DNA of 64,000 nt. Source: Proteiniphilum acetatigenes DSM 18083 (GTDB taxonomy: Bacteria > Bacteroidota > Bacteroidia > Bacteroidales > Dysgonomonadaceae). Shown in pieces: positions 3,160 through 56,181 of the stretch (the stretch's first letter is position 1; the number at the start of each line of letters is the position of its first letter). The DNA is taken from assembly GCF_000380985.1 (NCBI RefSeq), contig NZ_KB905692.1, positions 124,001-188,000 on the forward strand, read 5' to 3'. A program made the translations under genes and the position numbers. The notes beneath the pieces are model-generated. The model was given only the letters and a program-made list of their open reading frames with translations, was not told the DNA's origin and made no database searches.

Positions 3160-3317
3160 GATAAGGGATAATGGACAATGGACAGTTGACAATGGACAGT
3201 TGGCAGTGAATAAGGGACTGGGAAAAGAAGGAGTAAGGGAGACTGAACAACCAATAGTGACCGGGAGAAGGGATGACTGGGGAGATTGGGAAGACTGGGA
3301 GACTGGGGTGAGGAAGA
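3160..3317 (+). repeat. Purine-rich word repeats (GGACAATGGACAG and GGGAGACTGGGGAGA types)
   Basis: The region between the convergent TolC and DUF3810 genes is made of near-repeats: ATGGACAATGGACAGTTGAC, then GACTGGGGAGATTGGGAAGA and GACTGGGAGACTGGGG. The same GGGAGACTGGGG words occur at 9320-9400, and at 54500-54520 in the TCTCCCCAGTCTCCCAGTC orientation. No gene and no clear terminator hairpin. Confidence 0.65.
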
Positions 3318-5171: not shown

Positions 5172-5399
5172 CAAAGTATATAAGGGAATGGAACTTCCCT
5201 GTTATAAACCGCTAATATAAATAGCTGATAGTTCCTACTTGATTAATCAATAAAAATAAAGATTATGAGTAGGAATTTTGTATTTGTAGACTTCCCGGTT
5301 GGCGGTAAGACTCCCAGAAATAAAGGAATAATATCTGCTCATGTAGTAACTACATGGGCTATACCTGTTTGTATATATTTATTTTAAAATAATTGACTT
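5172..5399 (+). promoter_or_regulatory. Structured 5' leader of enolase (possible cis-regulatory RNA)
   Basis: No large gene here. Three inverted repeats are visible: AGGGAA/TTCCCT at 5183-5200; TTCCTACT at 5232-5239 against AGTAGGAA at 5268-5275; and a near-perfect hairpin at 5338-5358 whose arms are CATGTAGT and ACTACATG, extended by GC/GC and a G-T pair. A 40-codon frame (next entry) overlaps the second and third hairpins. Whether this is a riboswitch-like leader, a leader-peptide attenuator or neither cannot be decided from sequence alone. Confidence 0.45.
5265..5387 (+). CDS. Possible 40-residue leader peptide upstream of enolase
   Basis: ATG 5265 opens a 40-codon frame (MSRNFVFVDFPVGGK...VCIYLF) that stops 12 bases before the enolase ATG. 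It is not a family I recognise. Its second half is hydrophobic. It overlaps hairpins of the leader RNA, so it could be a leader peptide or simply a chance frame; no codon or ribosome-site evidence settles this. Confidence 0.2.
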   Translation: MSRNFVFVDFPVGGKTPRNKGIISAHVVTTWAIPVCIYLF

Positions 5400-9066: not shown

Positions 9067-9489
9067 GTTATTATTACTTTTTCAACTTTCTCAAGCATAT
9101 CCGACGGAGTATATGTAACTAAATCATATAGTACACTTGCAAAAGTCAGTCATACATATTCCAAAAATAAACATTATTTAGACAAAAAACACTCAAGCTA
9201 AACGAATAGTTCCGAATTTAAACATTTTCAATGAAAGAACGGACATATTTATTCAAAACCGAACCCATACCTTTGTCGGCGAAAGAAAAAGAAGATGCAG
9301 GATGTGAGATTTAGGATTGGGAGACTGGGGAGATTGGGAGACAGAGATTGGGAGACAGAGATTGGGAGACAGAGATTGGGAGATTAGGAGACTGGAGTTT
9401 GATAGTTTTGAAATCCTGGAATCCTGAATTGAAAATCGACGTAGTCAAATCCTGAAATCTTGAATCTTGAATTTTGAATTTAAAATAAT
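9067..9489. other. Divergent regulatory region between AraC regulator and RND operon
   Basis: 423 bp without a gene. TACCTTTG at 9268-9275 (plus) fits the Bacteroidetes -7 element and would give a transcript with a leader of about 210 nt. No good TTG box sits 20 bases before it, as expected for an activator-dependent promoter. From 9300 onward the leader is entirely word-like repeats, including three tandem 14-bp units and an ATCGAC-GTAGTCAAAT element. Confidence 0.5.
9333..9374 (+). repeat. Three tandem copies of a 14-bp unit (ATTGGGAGACAGAG)
   Basis: Exact copies start at 9333, 9347 and 9361; degenerate copies flank them (from 9315 and 9375). The words match the GGGAGACTGGGGAGA blocks at 3265-3310. 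The array lies inside the probable leader of the RND operon. It has no spacers, so it is not CRISPR. Confidence 0.9.
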
Positions 9490-13675: not shown

Positions 13676-13929
13676 TGATGATTTAGCGATTTAACGATGT
13701 GATGATTTTTTAAATGTGAATAATGTGTCAATGAGAATAATGTGACAGAAATTAGAACTAAGAAGTGGAAAGGTGGAAAAGTGATTAGGAATTTTGTGAA
13801 ATCATAGAATCTTGAATTGAATTGTAAAACGACGCAGTCAAAATCAGCACAGCGAAATACTGAATTGAATTAACAATCGAGGTAGTCAATTCCCAAATCC
13901 CAATTCCCAAATCTTGGTTCTTGGGTCTT
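13676..13929 (+). repeat. Word-like intergenic repeats between RND and TolC genes
   Basis: The spacer consists of near-repeats: GATGATTTAGCGATTTAACG, GTGGAAAGGTGGAAAAGTG, two copies of an element with a CGACGCAGTCAAAAT / CGAGGTAGTCAATT core (13812-13845 and 13861-13899), and CCCAAATCCCAATTCCCAAA. Related elements lie at 9425-9456 and 38011-38060. There is no terminator hairpin, so read-through to TolC is plausible. Confidence 0.65.
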
Positions 13930-13950
13930 ATGTCTAAAAAACAAACAAAT

Positions 13951-31137: not shown

Positions 31138-31349
31138 CTACAAAGATAATGAAAGCCGAGAGAAAAGCCAAGCTTGCTTAGGCTTTTCCGAGGTGCATCT
31201 TATATTCTACAAATATAATGAAAGCCGAAGGGTGAGCCAAGCTTGCTTGCGCTTGCCTAAGGCGCATCTTATATTCTACAAAGATAGTGAAAATCGAGAG
31301 CAACCGTGAGAGTTTACTCTCTAAAGATTGCCGAGATGTATCCTATCTT
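31138..31349 (-). repeat. Tandem 69-bp repeats carrying promoter elements for pepT
   Basis: Units start at 31138, 31207 and 31276, each opening CTACAAA(G/T)ATA. On the minus strand, the first two carry TATCTTTG (31141-31148) and TATATTTG (31210-31217), each with TTG exactly 20 bases upstream (31169-31171 and 31238-31240): two complete Bacteroidetes promoters aimed at pepT. The third has TATCTTTG at 31279-31286 but no TTG at the right distance. The middle of each unit is an inverted repeat (GAAAAGCC/GGCTTTTC in unit 1; GAGAG/CTCTC in unit 3) with different sequence but kept position. Confidence 0.8.
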
Positions 31350-31397: not shown

Positions 31398-31427
31398 TTT
31401 GTAACTCGAAAAAAAGCCTTATCTTTG
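31398..31427 (+). promoter_or_regulatory. Promoter of the 4.5S RNA gene
   Basis: TTTG at 31398-31401 and TATCTTTG at 31420-31427, 18 bases apart, ending just before the RNA's terminal helix. Confidence 0.75.
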
Positions 31428-31430
31428 CAG

Positions 31431-31534
31431 TCGGGTAAGTCCTATACGGCCAGCTCCCATTGAATCCCCCAGGTCTTGATCGAAGCAAGGGTATTTGGTT
31501 GTAGCGGCGCGATATAGTAAGCTTACCCTTTTTT
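31431..31534 (+). ncRNA. ffs: Signal recognition particle 4.5S RNA (small bacterial SRP RNA)
   Basis: About 100 nt. The 5' end GGGTAAG (31433-31439) pairs with the 3' CTTACCC (31522-31528), which is followed by six T: terminal helix plus terminator. The apical part has CCCCCAGGTCTTGATCGAAG and then CAAGGG: the CCAGGTC ... GAAGCA ... AAGG arrangement that binds the Ffh M domain. GGCCAGCTCCC and TTGGTTGTAGCGG form the intermediate helix. No open frame fits. Ffh is encoded at 25415. Confidence 0.85.
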
Positions 31535-33906: not shown

Positions 33907-34905
33907 ATGGAAAGAGAAAAAACAGAAAACATACGCAATCTGCAAATTGCATTGGTCGGACTTATCGTTGTGATAACTATTCTTTTTATCATCGGATGGA
34001 TCATTTATAAACCGGAGCCGGTCGTTATTCAAGGGTCTGCCGAAGCCAACGAGGTACGTGTCTCGGGAAAAGTCGCCGGACGCATTCAACAGTTCCTGGC
34101 AGAAGAAGGACAACATGTTGAACGAGGAGACACACTGGTATTCATCGACAGTCCTGAAATTTACGCGAAGCTTGCACAGGCTACGGCTGCACAAAATGCG
34201 GCAATGGCACAAGATCGCAAAGCACAAAAAGGGGCTCGTAGTGAAGTGATTCAGGGAGCTTATGAGATGTGGCAAAAAGCTGAAGTGGGTGCCGATATTG
34301 CCAAGAAATCATACGACCGTGTACAACGACTTTTCGAAAAAGGAGTAGTCACAGCTCAAAAGCGGGATGAAGCCGAAGCACAGTATCAGGCAGCGGTTGC
34401 ACAAGCCGCAGCAGCCAGATCGCAATACGATATGGCTAAAAACGGTGCCGAAGCGGAAGACAAGGCTGCCGCACTGGCGCTGGTAGATCGTGCACAGGGA
34501 GCTGTACAAGAAGTGGAAGCCTATATGAAAGAAATAACCCTTATTGCTCCTATTTCGGGTGAGGTGACGGATATATTTCCTAAACAGGGAGAGTTGGTCG
34601 GCACAGGAGCGCCTATTATGAATATTGTAGATTTGGATGATATCTGGTTCACTTTCAATGTACGTGAAGATTTACTTAACGACATGAAAAAGGGTGCAGT
34701 AATCACTGTAAAGATTCCGGCTTTAAATAACCGTGAAGCCAAATTGGAAATTACTTACATAAAGGCGATGGCTTCGTTTGCTACCTGGAAGACCACAAAA
34801 ACCACCGGTGATTTCGATCTGAAAACATTTGAGATCCGGGCAAAGCCGGTAGAGCCGATTAAAGACCTTCGCCCGGGAATGACGGCGTTGGTTGTAAGAG
34901 ATTAA
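33907..34905 (+). CDS. HlyD family secretion protein (membrane fusion adaptor)
   Basis: 332 residues. One N-terminal TM anchor (LVGLIVVITILFIIGWIIY, residues 19-37) without a lipobox, so it is of the EmrA/HlyD/YhiI type. First lipoyl half VRVSGKVAGRIQQFLAEEGQHVERGDTLVFID, then an alpha-hairpin (residues 80-195, rich in Ala and Gln), then LIAPISGEVTDIFPKQGELVGTGAP and the barrel with DLRPGMTALVVRD at the end. It bridges the two ABC-2 permeases and the TolC of this operon. Confidence 0.94.
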   Translation: MEREKTENIRNLQIALVGLIVVITILFIIGWIIYKPEPVVIQGSAEANEVRVSGKVAGRIQQFLAEEGQHVERGDTLVFIDSPEIYAKLAQATAAQNAAMAQDRKAQKGARSEVIQGAYEMWQKAEVGADIAKKSYDRVQRLFEKGVVTAQKRDEAEAQYQAAVAQAAAARSQYDMAKNGAEAEDKAAALALVDRAQGAVQEVEAYMKEITLIAPISGEVTDIFPKQGELVGTGAPIMNIVDLDDIWFTFNVREDLLNDMKKGAVITVKIPALNNREAKLEITYIKAMASFATWKTTKTTGDFDLKTFEIRAKPVEPIKDLRPGMTALVVRD

Positions 34906-35063
34906 TTACCAATCACTAATTACCAATTAGAAGTGGAGAAGTCAAGAAGTTTGAAAATCTTGAATATTGAATCTTAAATATTGAATCTTAAATCTTAAAT
35001 TTCTATAGTCTTGGTTCTTGACTCTTGGTTCTAATTCACTTTTAATTTTTCACTTTTAATCAG
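34906..35063 (+). repeat. Word-like repeat spacer between hlyD and the ABC permease
   Basis: Words include ACCAATCACTAATTACCAATT, AGTCAAGAAGTTTGAAAATCT, TTGAATATTGAATCTTAAAT, and the core with TTTCTATAGTC, TTGGTTCTTGACTCTTGG at 34998-35032. Order and content closely parallel 1700-1825, which precedes another efflux gene. Confidence 0.7.
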
Positions 35064-36275
35064 ATGTCAAATTCAATTATACAACAGATAAGAAATGTGG
35101 CACGCAGGGAATGGAAGCGGATGCTATCGCGCCCCATCTATCTCCTCTCTTCGGTCATCGCGATGCTTTTCTGCTATCTCTTCTTCCTGACGCTTATGTC
35201 GGAAGGGTTACCCGAACAGCTTCCCATCGGGATTATTGATAACGACAACTCATCATTGTCGCGCACTTTAGAACGGAATATAAATGCTTCTCCGCAGGTA
35301 AAAATCGTCGGTAAATATGCTTCATTTACCGAAGCTCGCAAAGATATGCAAAAGGGACGCATTTATGCTATCATCGACATTGCACCGGGGTTTCAGGCTG
35401 ACTTGCTTGCCAACCGACAACCGGCCATCGCCTATTATGTAAACGATGTCTATCTTGTGGCCGGATCGCTATCCTATAAAGACCTGACCTATATCAGTGA
35501 GTTAATGTCGGGTTTCATTCTGCAACAATCGCTGCAGGCAAAGGGAATTACAGGTGAAGAGAACCTGATGCCTATCTTACAACCTGTCGCCATCGATACA
35601 CACCAGATAGCCAATCCACAGGCAAACTACAATGTTTATCTGTCGAATGTATTGCTGCCCGGTGTATTGCAATTGCTGATCATCATGTTTACGATCTACA
35701 GTATAGGTATAGAAATGAAGCAAAACACCACACGTGAATGGCTTTCTACGGGTAATGAATCGGTACTTGCAGCCCTCACCGGCAAGGTATTGCCACACAC
35801 CTTTCTGTTTACGTTATTAGGTTTGATGGGAGTATTTCTGTTATATGAAGGGATGGAGTTTCCTATGAACGGCAGTATCGCATGGATGTCTCTGGCCATG
35901 TTTCTATTCGTAATGGCACACCAGGCCATCGGTATATTTATTATCGGCCTGTTCCCGCGATTGCGTGACGCCATCAGTTTAGGGGTATTCTATGGGTTAT
36001 TGAGTTTTACATATGCAGGCTTCACCTTTCCCATAGAAGCCATGCCCCGGGGAGCACAAATTTTTGCATGGTTTTTCCCTATCCGTCATTATTTCAGAAT
36101 ATATGTGAATGAAGCACTGAATGGTGTGGATATACGCTATTCGCTTATTTACTTTACAGGGATGGTTACATTTTTGATATTACCTTTCCTGGTTTATATC
36201 CGGTTAAGAAAAGCCATCGTCCATCATGACAGAGAAGAAACAAAAAACAGTAGATTCAATGAACAACTCCAATAA
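35064..36275 (+). CDS. ABC-2 type exporter permease (YhhJ/YbhR-like)
   Basis: 403 residues. TM1 near residues 25-45, then a large extracytoplasmic domain (residues 50-185: LPIGIIDNDNSSLSRTLERNI and PGFQADLLANRQPAIAYYVNDVY), and five TMs in the C-terminal half with the ABC-2 signature region AISLGVFYGLLSFTYAGFTFPIEAMP. Probably forms a heterodimer with the permease that follows, whose start overlaps this gene's end. No ATP-binding subunit is encoded in the operon. Confidence 0.92.
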   Translation: MSNSIIQQIRNVARREWKRMLSRPIYLLSSVIAMLFCYLFFLTLMSEGLPEQLPIGIIDNDNSSLSRTLERNINASPQVKIVGKYASFTEARKDMQKGRIYAIIDIAPGFQADLLANRQPAIAYYVNDVYLVAGSLSYKDLTYISELMSGFILQQSLQAKGITGEENLMPILQPVAIDTHQIANPQANYNVYLSNVLLPGVLQLLIIMFTIYSIGIEMKQNTTREWLSTGNESVLAALTGKVLPHTFLFTLLGLMGVFLLYEGMEFPMNGSIAWMSLAMFLFVMAHQAIGIFIIGLFPRLRDAISLGVFYGLLSFTYAGFTFPIEAMPRGAQIFAWFFPIRHYFRIYVNEALNGVDIRYSLIYFTGMVTFLILPFLVYIRLRKAIVHHDREETKNSRFNEQLQ

Positions 36276-37979: not shown

Positions 37980-38100
37980 AGAATCCAGAACCAAGAGCCA
38001 GGACTATAGAAATTCAAGATTTGACTATGTCGATTTTCAATTCAATTCAAGATTTCAAATTCAAAATCATCAAATCAAAAATTCACCTTTCCACCTTCTT
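37980..38100 (-). repeat. Word-like repeat block with both major core elements
   Basis: Read on the minus strand this block contains the ATCGACATAGTCAAAT element (38011-38060) followed by the TTTCTATAGTC-CTGGCTCTTGGTTCTGG element (37985-38015), joining in one place the two cores found separately at 9425/13812 and 1752/34998/56154. Confidence 0.7.
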
Positions 38101-46891: not shown

Positions 46892-46956
46892 TTTTCTATT
46901 GATTATGAAACGAGCATGAGAACTATATCCACACAAGAAGATAATTAAAGTGTCTT

Positions 46957-46983
46957 GTGTCTTGATTCTTGGCTCTTGTCTCT
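46957..46983 (-). repeat. Partial word-like repeat (TTGATTCTTGGCTCTTG)
   Basis: Reads TGTCTTGATTCTTGGCTCTT and resembles the tail of the 1752-1794 core. Lies between the DCC gene start and trmN6. Confidence 0.55.
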
Positions 46984-47786: not shown

Positions 47787-47840
47787 ATTAATTGATAATT
47801 GGCAATTGGTAATTACTAATTTGCAATTGCAATAACTTTG
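47785..47840. repeat. Word-like repeat (TTGGCAATTGGTAATTACTAA)
   Basis: TTGATAATTGGCAATTGGTA then ATTACTAATTTGCAATTGC; the same TAATTG/CAATTG words sit at 1801-1825 and 34906-34930. Confidence 0.55.
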
Positions 47841-52078: not shown

Positions 52079-52579
52079 AAGCGATGTGCTTTAGTTGTGT
52101 TAAATGATCGTTGTCCTTGCAAATATAAAGAGATATATTTAAAAACTACTCCCTTTATGCACCCAAAAACGATTAATTAGTGTTAACAAATAAAGAATCG
52201 CTAAAAATATACTGATAAACAGACAAATAAACATCAAAAAAAACATACCTAAAACCCTCGATAACTGATAAAAAAAATTTATGTCTTAAATCATTGAATA
52301 AATGATTACAATAGATTTAAAGCCATGGATTTTTTTAGACCGATTCTAAATAATTTTTTCAGATGACAAGCAAATATTCCATATGTTAATCCCCCGGTTT
52401 AACACAACTGGTTAATTATCGGGAAAGAAAGAAAAATTCCAATTCCCCGACCCTGCCAATCGGGCTTTATGGCATACAATTTGTATTGAAAAATGAAGAA
52501 TGAAAAGTGAATAATGAAGAATGGAGAGTGAGGAGCTAATTTTTCATTCTTAATTCTTAATTTTTTAATTTATATATAT
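52079..52579. other. Divergent intergenic region between sigma factor and htpG
   Basis: 501 bp, AT-rich, no gene. The minus-strand TATATTTG (52120-52127) probably serves the sigma gene. Bases 52491-52566 are word-like (GAATGAAAAGTGAATAATGA, AGAATGGAGAGTGAGG, CATTCTTAATTCTTAATT) just before htpG. I find no inverted repeat of the CIRCE heat-shock type. Confidence 0.6.
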
Positions 52580-56036: not shown

Positions 56037-56153
56037 CTTTTAGTGAAAAATTAAAAGTGAAATCTGCGAGTAAACAAGTGCAAAAACAAACTTGTTTGGA
56101 TTTGCCGAGCGGGAGCAGATTGCACAAAGTGAAAAATCAAAAATCCACTATCC

Positions 56154-56181
56154 CTAGTCTTGGTTCTTGAATCCTGGTTCT
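56154..56181 (+). repeat. Copy of the CTAGTC-TTGGTTCTTG core repeat
   Basis: CTAGTCTTGGTTCTTGAATC then CTGGTTCT, matching 1757-1794 and 34998-35032. Between HIT and greA genes, three bases from the greA stop. Upstream (56041-56060) are GTGAAAAATTAAAAGTGAAA words. Confidence 0.65.

Follow-up and report, generated by a model that had tools for sequence, protein, structure and literature searches.

A dispersed core element of Proteiniphilum acetatigenes as one dialect of genome-wide, fast-changing spacer DNA made of imperfect seven-nucleotide words

Layout of the core and its copies

The spacer considered here lies between a HlyD-family gene (33907-34905) and an ATG at 35064; the window means the whole 64-kb stretch of DNA that was analysed. 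All of the features of this spacer were mapped on the plus strand. An array of word I (TTACCAATCACTAATTACCAATTA, 34906-34929) stands directly 3' of the stop codon of the HlyD-family gene, as placed by the word map and Pfam. It is followed by the purine-rich word E (GAAGTGGAGAAGTCAAGAAGTTTGA, 34930-34954), which is common to three further loci, and by heptad array F, with about 6.6 copies of AATCTTG/AATATTG units (34955-35002; called by TRF at 34955-35000 with period 7). The core named in the first-pass annotation comes next, as CTATAGTC and then heptad array H (TTGGTTC TTGACTC TTGGTTCT), at 35003-35032. Finally, the pyrimidine-rich word J (TTCACTTTTAATTTTTCACTTTTA, 35035-35060) ends a few bases 5' of the ATG. 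The core itself amounts to two adjacent heptad arrays, (AATCTTG)n and (TTGGTTC)n, linked by CTATAGTC or, in the copies, by one of its relatives (CCATAGTC, CCCTAGTC and AAACAGTC).

The first-pass annotation had listed four copies, at 1752-1794, 34998-35032, 37985-38015 (minus strand) and 56154-56181, and all four are present there or a few bases away; its two partial copies, at 13911-13928 and 46957-46983, were also recovered, as heptad arrays. The limits that it gave to the core were too narrow: four loci have a phrase of 75-95 bp in common, in the same order (AAGTCAAGAAGTTTGAAAATCTTGAAT..AATTTCTATAGTCTTGGTTCTTG), and the true repeating unit is 7 nt. A copy E-F-CTATAGTC-H (1717-1794, plus) has an AcrB-family gene on one side and an OEP gene on the other, and a minus-strand copy (37980-38080, words h-f-l-d-e in plus-strand order) lies 5' of a radical-SAM gene. 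The copy CCCTAGTC-TTGGTTCTTGAATCCTGGTTCT (56126-56181, plus) adjoins a GreA/GreB gene and is identical in the sister genome G015, with 100% identical flanks, and the word H array (CTTGTGTCTTGATTCTTGGCTCTTGTCTC, 46947-46983, plus) is missing from the orthologous G015 spacer. The fullest word set of the window is the chain D-A-O-E-F-L-G-H (13680-13935, plus).

Further plus-strand arrays were mapped at 9330-9480 (GGGAGATT/GAGACA array, then GAAAATCGACGTAGTC and AATCTTG heptads, 5' of a HlyD-family gene), 3166-3202 (heptad/14-mer array GGACAATGGACAGTTG) and 47789-47829 (heptad array TAATTGG). At 52487-52562 a purine-rich TGAAGAA array is followed by a pyrimidine-rich TAATTCT array, a polarity within one spacer. 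Copies had been placed in spacers, inside probable operons and before efflux genes. This context stands (OEP, HlyD and ABC-2 proteins by Pfam), but arrays also lie by the radical-SAM and GreA/GreB genes and throughout the genome.

In the window alone, 11 matches to TTGGTTCTTG at up to one mismatch, against 5.2 expected, are only suggestive of an excess, because 3 of 100 shuffles reach 11. Genome-wide (4.78 Mb), there are 35 occurrences of CTTGGTTCTTG, where the reversed control has 3, and the full core (CTATAGTC+TTGRTTCYTG) is weaker, with 56 against 35 at up to three mismatches and 15 copies at up to two. A profile made from three copies and iterated over 1.65 Mb of this genome (G000) and 0.4 Mb of its relative G015 returned 41 members at E ≤ 0.01 in these 2.05 Mb, against one in reversed DNA (E 0.0099). 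The repeat is real, and it extends well past the copies first listed.

A known RNA family was rejected for the arrays: Rfam matches in the window were SRP RNA, a tRNA and a fluoride riboswitch only, none of them in array spacers. The fluoride riboswitch (5175-5244) scored over gathering. Just 5' of the SRP RNA (31426-31532), a 69-bp unit occurs in two tandem copies (AAAGCCGA..AAGCCAAGCTTGCTT..GCGCATCTTATATT, 31138-31292), and related units are found in other spacers.

Seven-nucleotide register, word order and polarity

Degenerate tandem words of 7 nt, and in part of 8 nt, make up the repeat as a mosaic; they include TTGAATC, TTGGTTC, TAATTAC, TTCACTT and AAGTGGAGAAG. Around the core lie further low-complexity words, mostly of period 7 and some of period 8 (TAATTACC, AAGTGGAGAAGTCAAGAAG, AGAACTAAGAAG, GGGAGACTGGG, GGACAATGGACAGTTG, AATGTGCCAATGAGAC, TGATGATTTAAC, CCCAAATCCCAAATC, ATCGACGTAGTC, TTCACTTTTAATTTTTCAC, TTATTCTTTACTC and TTCTTAGTTCTTAA). 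The autocorrelation of spacers has peaks at lag 7 (z 8.4 and 10.8) and also at 8, 14 and 21, and coding DNA has no such peaks. Relative to dinucleotide shuffles, TRF array coverage of spacers is raised 11.6-fold for period 7, 8.0-fold for period 8 and 6.1-fold for period 14; the remaining periods to 16 stay at or below 3.2-fold, the value of period 16, and periods 9-13 at or below 1.8-fold. About one spacer in five is partly taken up by arrays of 7/8-nt words, and 139 of 779 contain a period-7 array. Genes were taken as longest-ORF calls and not from curated annotation.

Words, and phrases of several words (75-150 bp), are found again in spacers unrelated to one another. Individual 14-mers are found across 4-19 of them, and 502 14-mers occur in at least four spacers against 0 in shuffles, a count that includes other dispersed repeats. 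At least 45 bp are common to the members of 963 spacer pairs, 244 of which join word-bearing spacers. Matches per kb amount to 3.9 in codirectional, 3.0 in convergent and 1.9 in divergent spacers, and the share of word matches that falls within ORFs of more than 200 aa depends on the word, from 7/53 to 33/54. Within the genus, TTGGTTC/TTGATTC arrays are abundant in some species and missing in others, and the shorter word AATCTTGAATCTTGAAT is patchy in the order (7/198 genomes). We also found AATCTTGAATYTTGAATYTTGAAT in at least 114 genome-contig stretches from Bacteroidota, Gammaproteobacteria, Nitrospirota, Patescibacteria, Acidobacteriota and others; among the matches listed, the closest named one is Proteiniphilum sp. 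X52.

Words were mapped as 14-mers with at most one mismatch, exact-word regular expressions being too strict for the order test. The order of the words is fixed, with purine-rich words 3' of the upstream stop codon (median distances 5-15 nt) and pyrimidine-rich words 5' of the next start codon (12-30 nt). The order matrix is near-triangular, for example E before F 15:0, E before H 12:0, E before J 16:0 and I before F 10:0. Moreover, the order learned on contig C1 and G015 predicts that on C2-C4 at 105:26 (80%), where 500 within-chain shuffles of word order gave 0.495 ± 0.050 and none reached 0.80; the hold-out is not perfectly blind, because copies on C2-C3 had already been seen when the words were defined, mainly on the window and the first contig.

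Word order mostly reduces to base content. The rule of purine-rich left and pyrimidine-rich right holds for 132:38 same-strand and 117:46 opposite-strand word pairs, and it reads identically on either strand; inverted pairs of word F always have the form GATTCAA..TTGAATC (26:0). In forward codirectional spacers with words the purine fraction drops from 0.61-0.65 to 0.43-0.53, and in those without words it is flat. Register, word order and purine-to-pyrimidine polarity had all been missed in the first-pass annotation.

In an unsupervised test, TRF arrays of period 7, 8, 14 or 21 in spacers were paired with neighbours up to 200 bp apart. Purine content was higher in the left array for 85 of 114 G000 pairs (85:29, p 1.5e-7) and for 17 of 20 in G015, where a separate count of array pairs gave 24:6 at period 7 and 43:17 at periods 7/8. 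The same was true of 131 of 204 pairs (131:73, p 6e-5) from mixed-phyla loci, which were retrieved with a single word and so are not a random genome sample, several of them sharing a genome; control arrays of period 3/6/9/12 in this set had no polarity (85:75). Purine content also fell with position in codirectional spacers (rho -0.32, p 5e-5), and control periods 3/6/9/12 and 5/10 gave no such correlation. In G015 the trend was weak for periods 7/8 (rho -0.19, p 0.014) and fell short of significance with period 7 by itself (rho -0.12, p 0.18).

By group, the mixed-phyla pairs divide into Thioalkalivibrio and its relatives (32:10), Bacteroidota (36:22, p 0.09) and unlisted loci (45:23), with no polarity in phyla outside Bacteroidota and the Thioalkalivibrio group (18:18). 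None was seen among 13 array pairs from other families of the order (6:7). For this genus and the Thioalkalivibrio group the polarity is firm, and for other Bacteroidota it is suggestive. In addition, inverted GATTCAA..TTGAATC heptad arrays in Thioalkalivibrio-type loci (L131, L137, L149, L162, L199, L207, L208 and others) sit in gene gaps and bracket unrelated interiors of 35-90 bp.

Turnover of array spacers and possible origins

Parts of G000 align collinearly with G015 at 80-99% identity. Replacement is much faster in array spacers than in the rest. Where the flanks have diverged, spacer identity is below 60% in 50/75 array spacers against 30/112 others (p 9e-8); where the flanks are at least 96% identical, it is below 90% in 12/29 against 5/52 (p 0.001). 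Array length changes in excess steps of 7, 14 or 21 (26/96 indels against 8/64, p 0.03), for which the evidence is modest. In the G015 counterpart of the spacer described above, the outer words TTACCAATGACCAATGACTAATTATCAATTAGAAGTTGAGAAG .. TTTCACTTTTAATTTTTCAC are kept and the middle F-CTATAGTC-H block is missing. Growth from the middle of array spacers is only suggested, identity being 0.65 at the edges against 0.58 at the centre (p 0.05), with no significant departure from the pattern of other spacers (p 0.19).

Spacer DNA of imperfect 7-nt words is genome-wide and fast-changing here, and the core element is one dialect of it. The element had been described as possibly a relic of a mobile element, a degenerating microsatellite with long words or a DNA/RNA signal; the microsatellite fits best, with its period-7/8 arrays, 7-step indels and fast turnover, and a bounded mobile element has no support.

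The comparison of the two genomes revealed other features. At G000:C1:171066-239178, identity to G015 forms a sharp mosaic between the two species of 97-99% and 80-88% blocks, one of them 40 kb long, a sign of recent large recombination or transfer. A dispersed repeat of another kind, about 100-260 bp long (..CGTTTTGAGTCGCCTTCGCTCCTCGATTTTCAATTCTACGCTCAACATAGT..) and found at G000:C1:245650-245933, at C1:260200-260305 (L040, L041) and in many other spacers, with 14-mers in up to 16 of them, is cleanly missing at the orthologous G015 sites and is a true insertion-type element. Another dispersed element, palindromic and of about 130-200 bp (GACGATATTTTGTGACCCATTATAG..CTATGGGTCCCCACAAAATATC; G000:C1:312400-312608, L044, and G015 1086694-1088154), differs in presence between the sister genomes.

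We consider it probable that the core represents one piece of a degenerate heptad spacer DNA, a filler built by slippage and dispersed through ectopic copying. At gene borders, replication slippage with a 7-nt register would make the arrays; phrases would be spread by short events of ectopic copying, or by recombination, anchored on shared words, which would also keep word order. Such copying of phrases to unrelated loci is suggested by present-day similarity, no copying event having been directly seen. Slippage alone does not account for the recurrence of the same words at unrelated loci or for the occurrence of TTGAATC arrays in many phyla. Array DNA may be mostly filler that selection mainly tolerates, most readily between codirectional genes, where it has little structure. 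The polarity would most likely come from a strand-polar step in array growth off both gene borders and not from a protein-specific site, which is the weakest step of this account.

It is possible, if somewhat unlikely, that the arrays are instead selected RNA-level signals, purine-rich and C-poor after the stop codon and pyrimidine-rich before the start codon, which might aid read-through of untranslated operon gaps (e.g., by denying Rho loading) or Shine-Dalgarno-free initiation. Enrichment of arrays in codirectional spacers agrees with this, as do the composition near the stop codon in forward codirectional array spacers (C down to 0.10, G up to 0.24), the sense-strand preference of words A (16:2), E (28:12) and L (24:9), and a sense RNA that folds more strongly than the antisense in array spacers only. 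Words F, H, J, K and N, however, have no strand preference, and the very fast turnover, with wholesale replacement of orthologous spacers, also argues against selected signals. In divergent spacers 7 of 8 chains follow the polarity, as the RNA model also predicts; the data cannot separate an RNA-level from a DNA-level rule, because the geometry expected from them is the same whichever way the genes are arranged.

Filler added to 3' ends in end joining at gene borders, purine-rich on both strands, would yield exactly a strand-symmetric purine-to-pyrimidine order. The inverted TTGAATC arrays, always in one order and pointing outward to flanking DNA, are consistent with such an origin, as is the middle position of the block that G015 lacks. 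We nevertheless judge it very unlikely, since the centre is not clearly younger and Ku does not track arrays across the genus: the complete G015 genome bears arrays without a Ku match, and Ku is found in array-poor relatives. A Ku homologue lies at G000:C6:37420-37953, and in the genus it is patchy (10 of 61 searched genomes over the cut-off).

A decayed bounded mobile element, MITE-like or REP-like and of about 90-400 bp, would account for 75-95 bp in the same order at four loci and for a conserved word order, which would be ancestral. This is highly improbable. As in the earlier remark, no terminal repeats or target duplications were seen; the copies with flanks have inner words in common and not ends, and constant ends were not seen either. 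Copies vary in the words that they retain, and orthologous spacers with and without the block show replacement with no clean target-site duplication. Moreover, the order is symmetric under reverse complement and tracks base content, opposite-strand pairs included, and unsupervised arrays of other words in mixed phyla follow it too.

A long RNA or DNA hairpin (terminator, attenuator or cruciform) built from the purine and pyrimidine arms is extremely improbable. Single spacers, the present one included, do fold into long hairpins, and GATTCAA and TTGAATC arrays are inverted pairs in Thioalkalivibrio-type loci. As a group, however, array spacers are less structured than others (mean folding z -0.69 against -1.38), and convergent spacers are not enriched. 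Pairing between the left and right halves of one array spacer is also no better than between left and right halves taken from different array spacers (p 0.58), whereas in ordinary spacers it is better (p 0.014).

Returning to slippage-built filler, its polar step could apply to bacteria generally, with strand-polar DNA synthesis in a 7-nt register laying purine-rich words inward from each gene border, a generalisation that we regard as quite unlikely. If it were true, a single mechanism would have produced the intergenic heptads of many phyla, quadruplex-forming ones included, and these would not be regulatory sites.

Comparison with known intergenic repeats

REP/BIME, ERIC and other bounded dispersed repeats are likewise short, dispersed and intergenic. 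Unlike them, the arrays described here have no constant ends or palindromic unit and are defined by period and base polarity. Among the short tandem repeats of spacers, period 7 prevails in many species (SPADE survey, PMC6344855; Mrazek et al. 2007, as cited in PMC4679880). The SPADE survey describes heptamers as the most abundant tandem repeats of prokaryotic spacers, with no clear clue to their function and no accepted cause for this commonest period. These surveys appear to deal with long or regular arrays, whereas the units here are degenerate, mixed and ordered. A polarity over many words and more than one phylum offers a handle on this unsolved periodicity of bacterial genomes, and the question is now testable on any annotated genome set.

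TAACTGA direct repeats occur close to start codons in Beggiatoaceae, where they lie before them, in Cyanobacteria and in some Bacteroidetes and differ by 7-nt indels between strains, and some Bacteroidetes spacers carry several heptamer families (MacGregor 2015, PMC4679880). They resemble the present arrays as intergenic heptads that are common to several phyla and change by 7-nt indels. TAACTGA is, however, a single near-exact word oriented toward start codons, with rare one-base variants, whereas here variants are the rule; it is not among the words that we found as TRF arrays or recurrent 14-mers. In the open-access literature, we found no paper describing an ordered, polar heptad mosaic and nothing on point for Proteiniphilum or Thioalkalivibrio repeats.

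There is also a close likeness to the heptamer repeats GGGAATC / GGGGA(C/T)T of Xanthomonas and Nostoc, which are intergenic, mostly codirectional and rare between divergent genes (PMC4692102, 2015). Their purine-rich strand lies within 50 bp after the stop codon (sense) or before the start codon (antisense), which is the same polarity as here. Some form inverted pairs, and unit number differs between relatives (PMC4692102). The 7-nt unit, intergenic position, codirectional bias, polarity, inverted pairs and unit-number variation are all shared with our arrays. In contrast to one G-rich, quadruplex-forming word per lineage, the present genome has about a dozen, mostly A/T-rich and degenerate. 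Most of these families (TTGAATC, TTGGTTC, TAATTAC, TTCACTT) have no runs of three G on either strand, GGGAGAYT being a minority, and quadruplexes cannot explain their polarity. Word-specific functions are argued against, because the polarity spans many unrelated words, outlives rapid replacement and matches that of the quadruplex repeats (PMC4692102). In Xanthomonas and Nostoc, 83% of repeats held their position between species and the loci were stabler than controls (PMC4692102), whereas array spacers here turn over faster than other spacers. Taken as first described, the element is unremarkable, but the rule that underlies it may not be. New here are a polarity that one genome shows for about a dozen distinct words, most of them not G-rich, and that an unsupervised test also finds elsewhere, and words that are ordered and mosaic, in spacers whose fast turnover contrasts with the stability of the Xanthomonas repeats.
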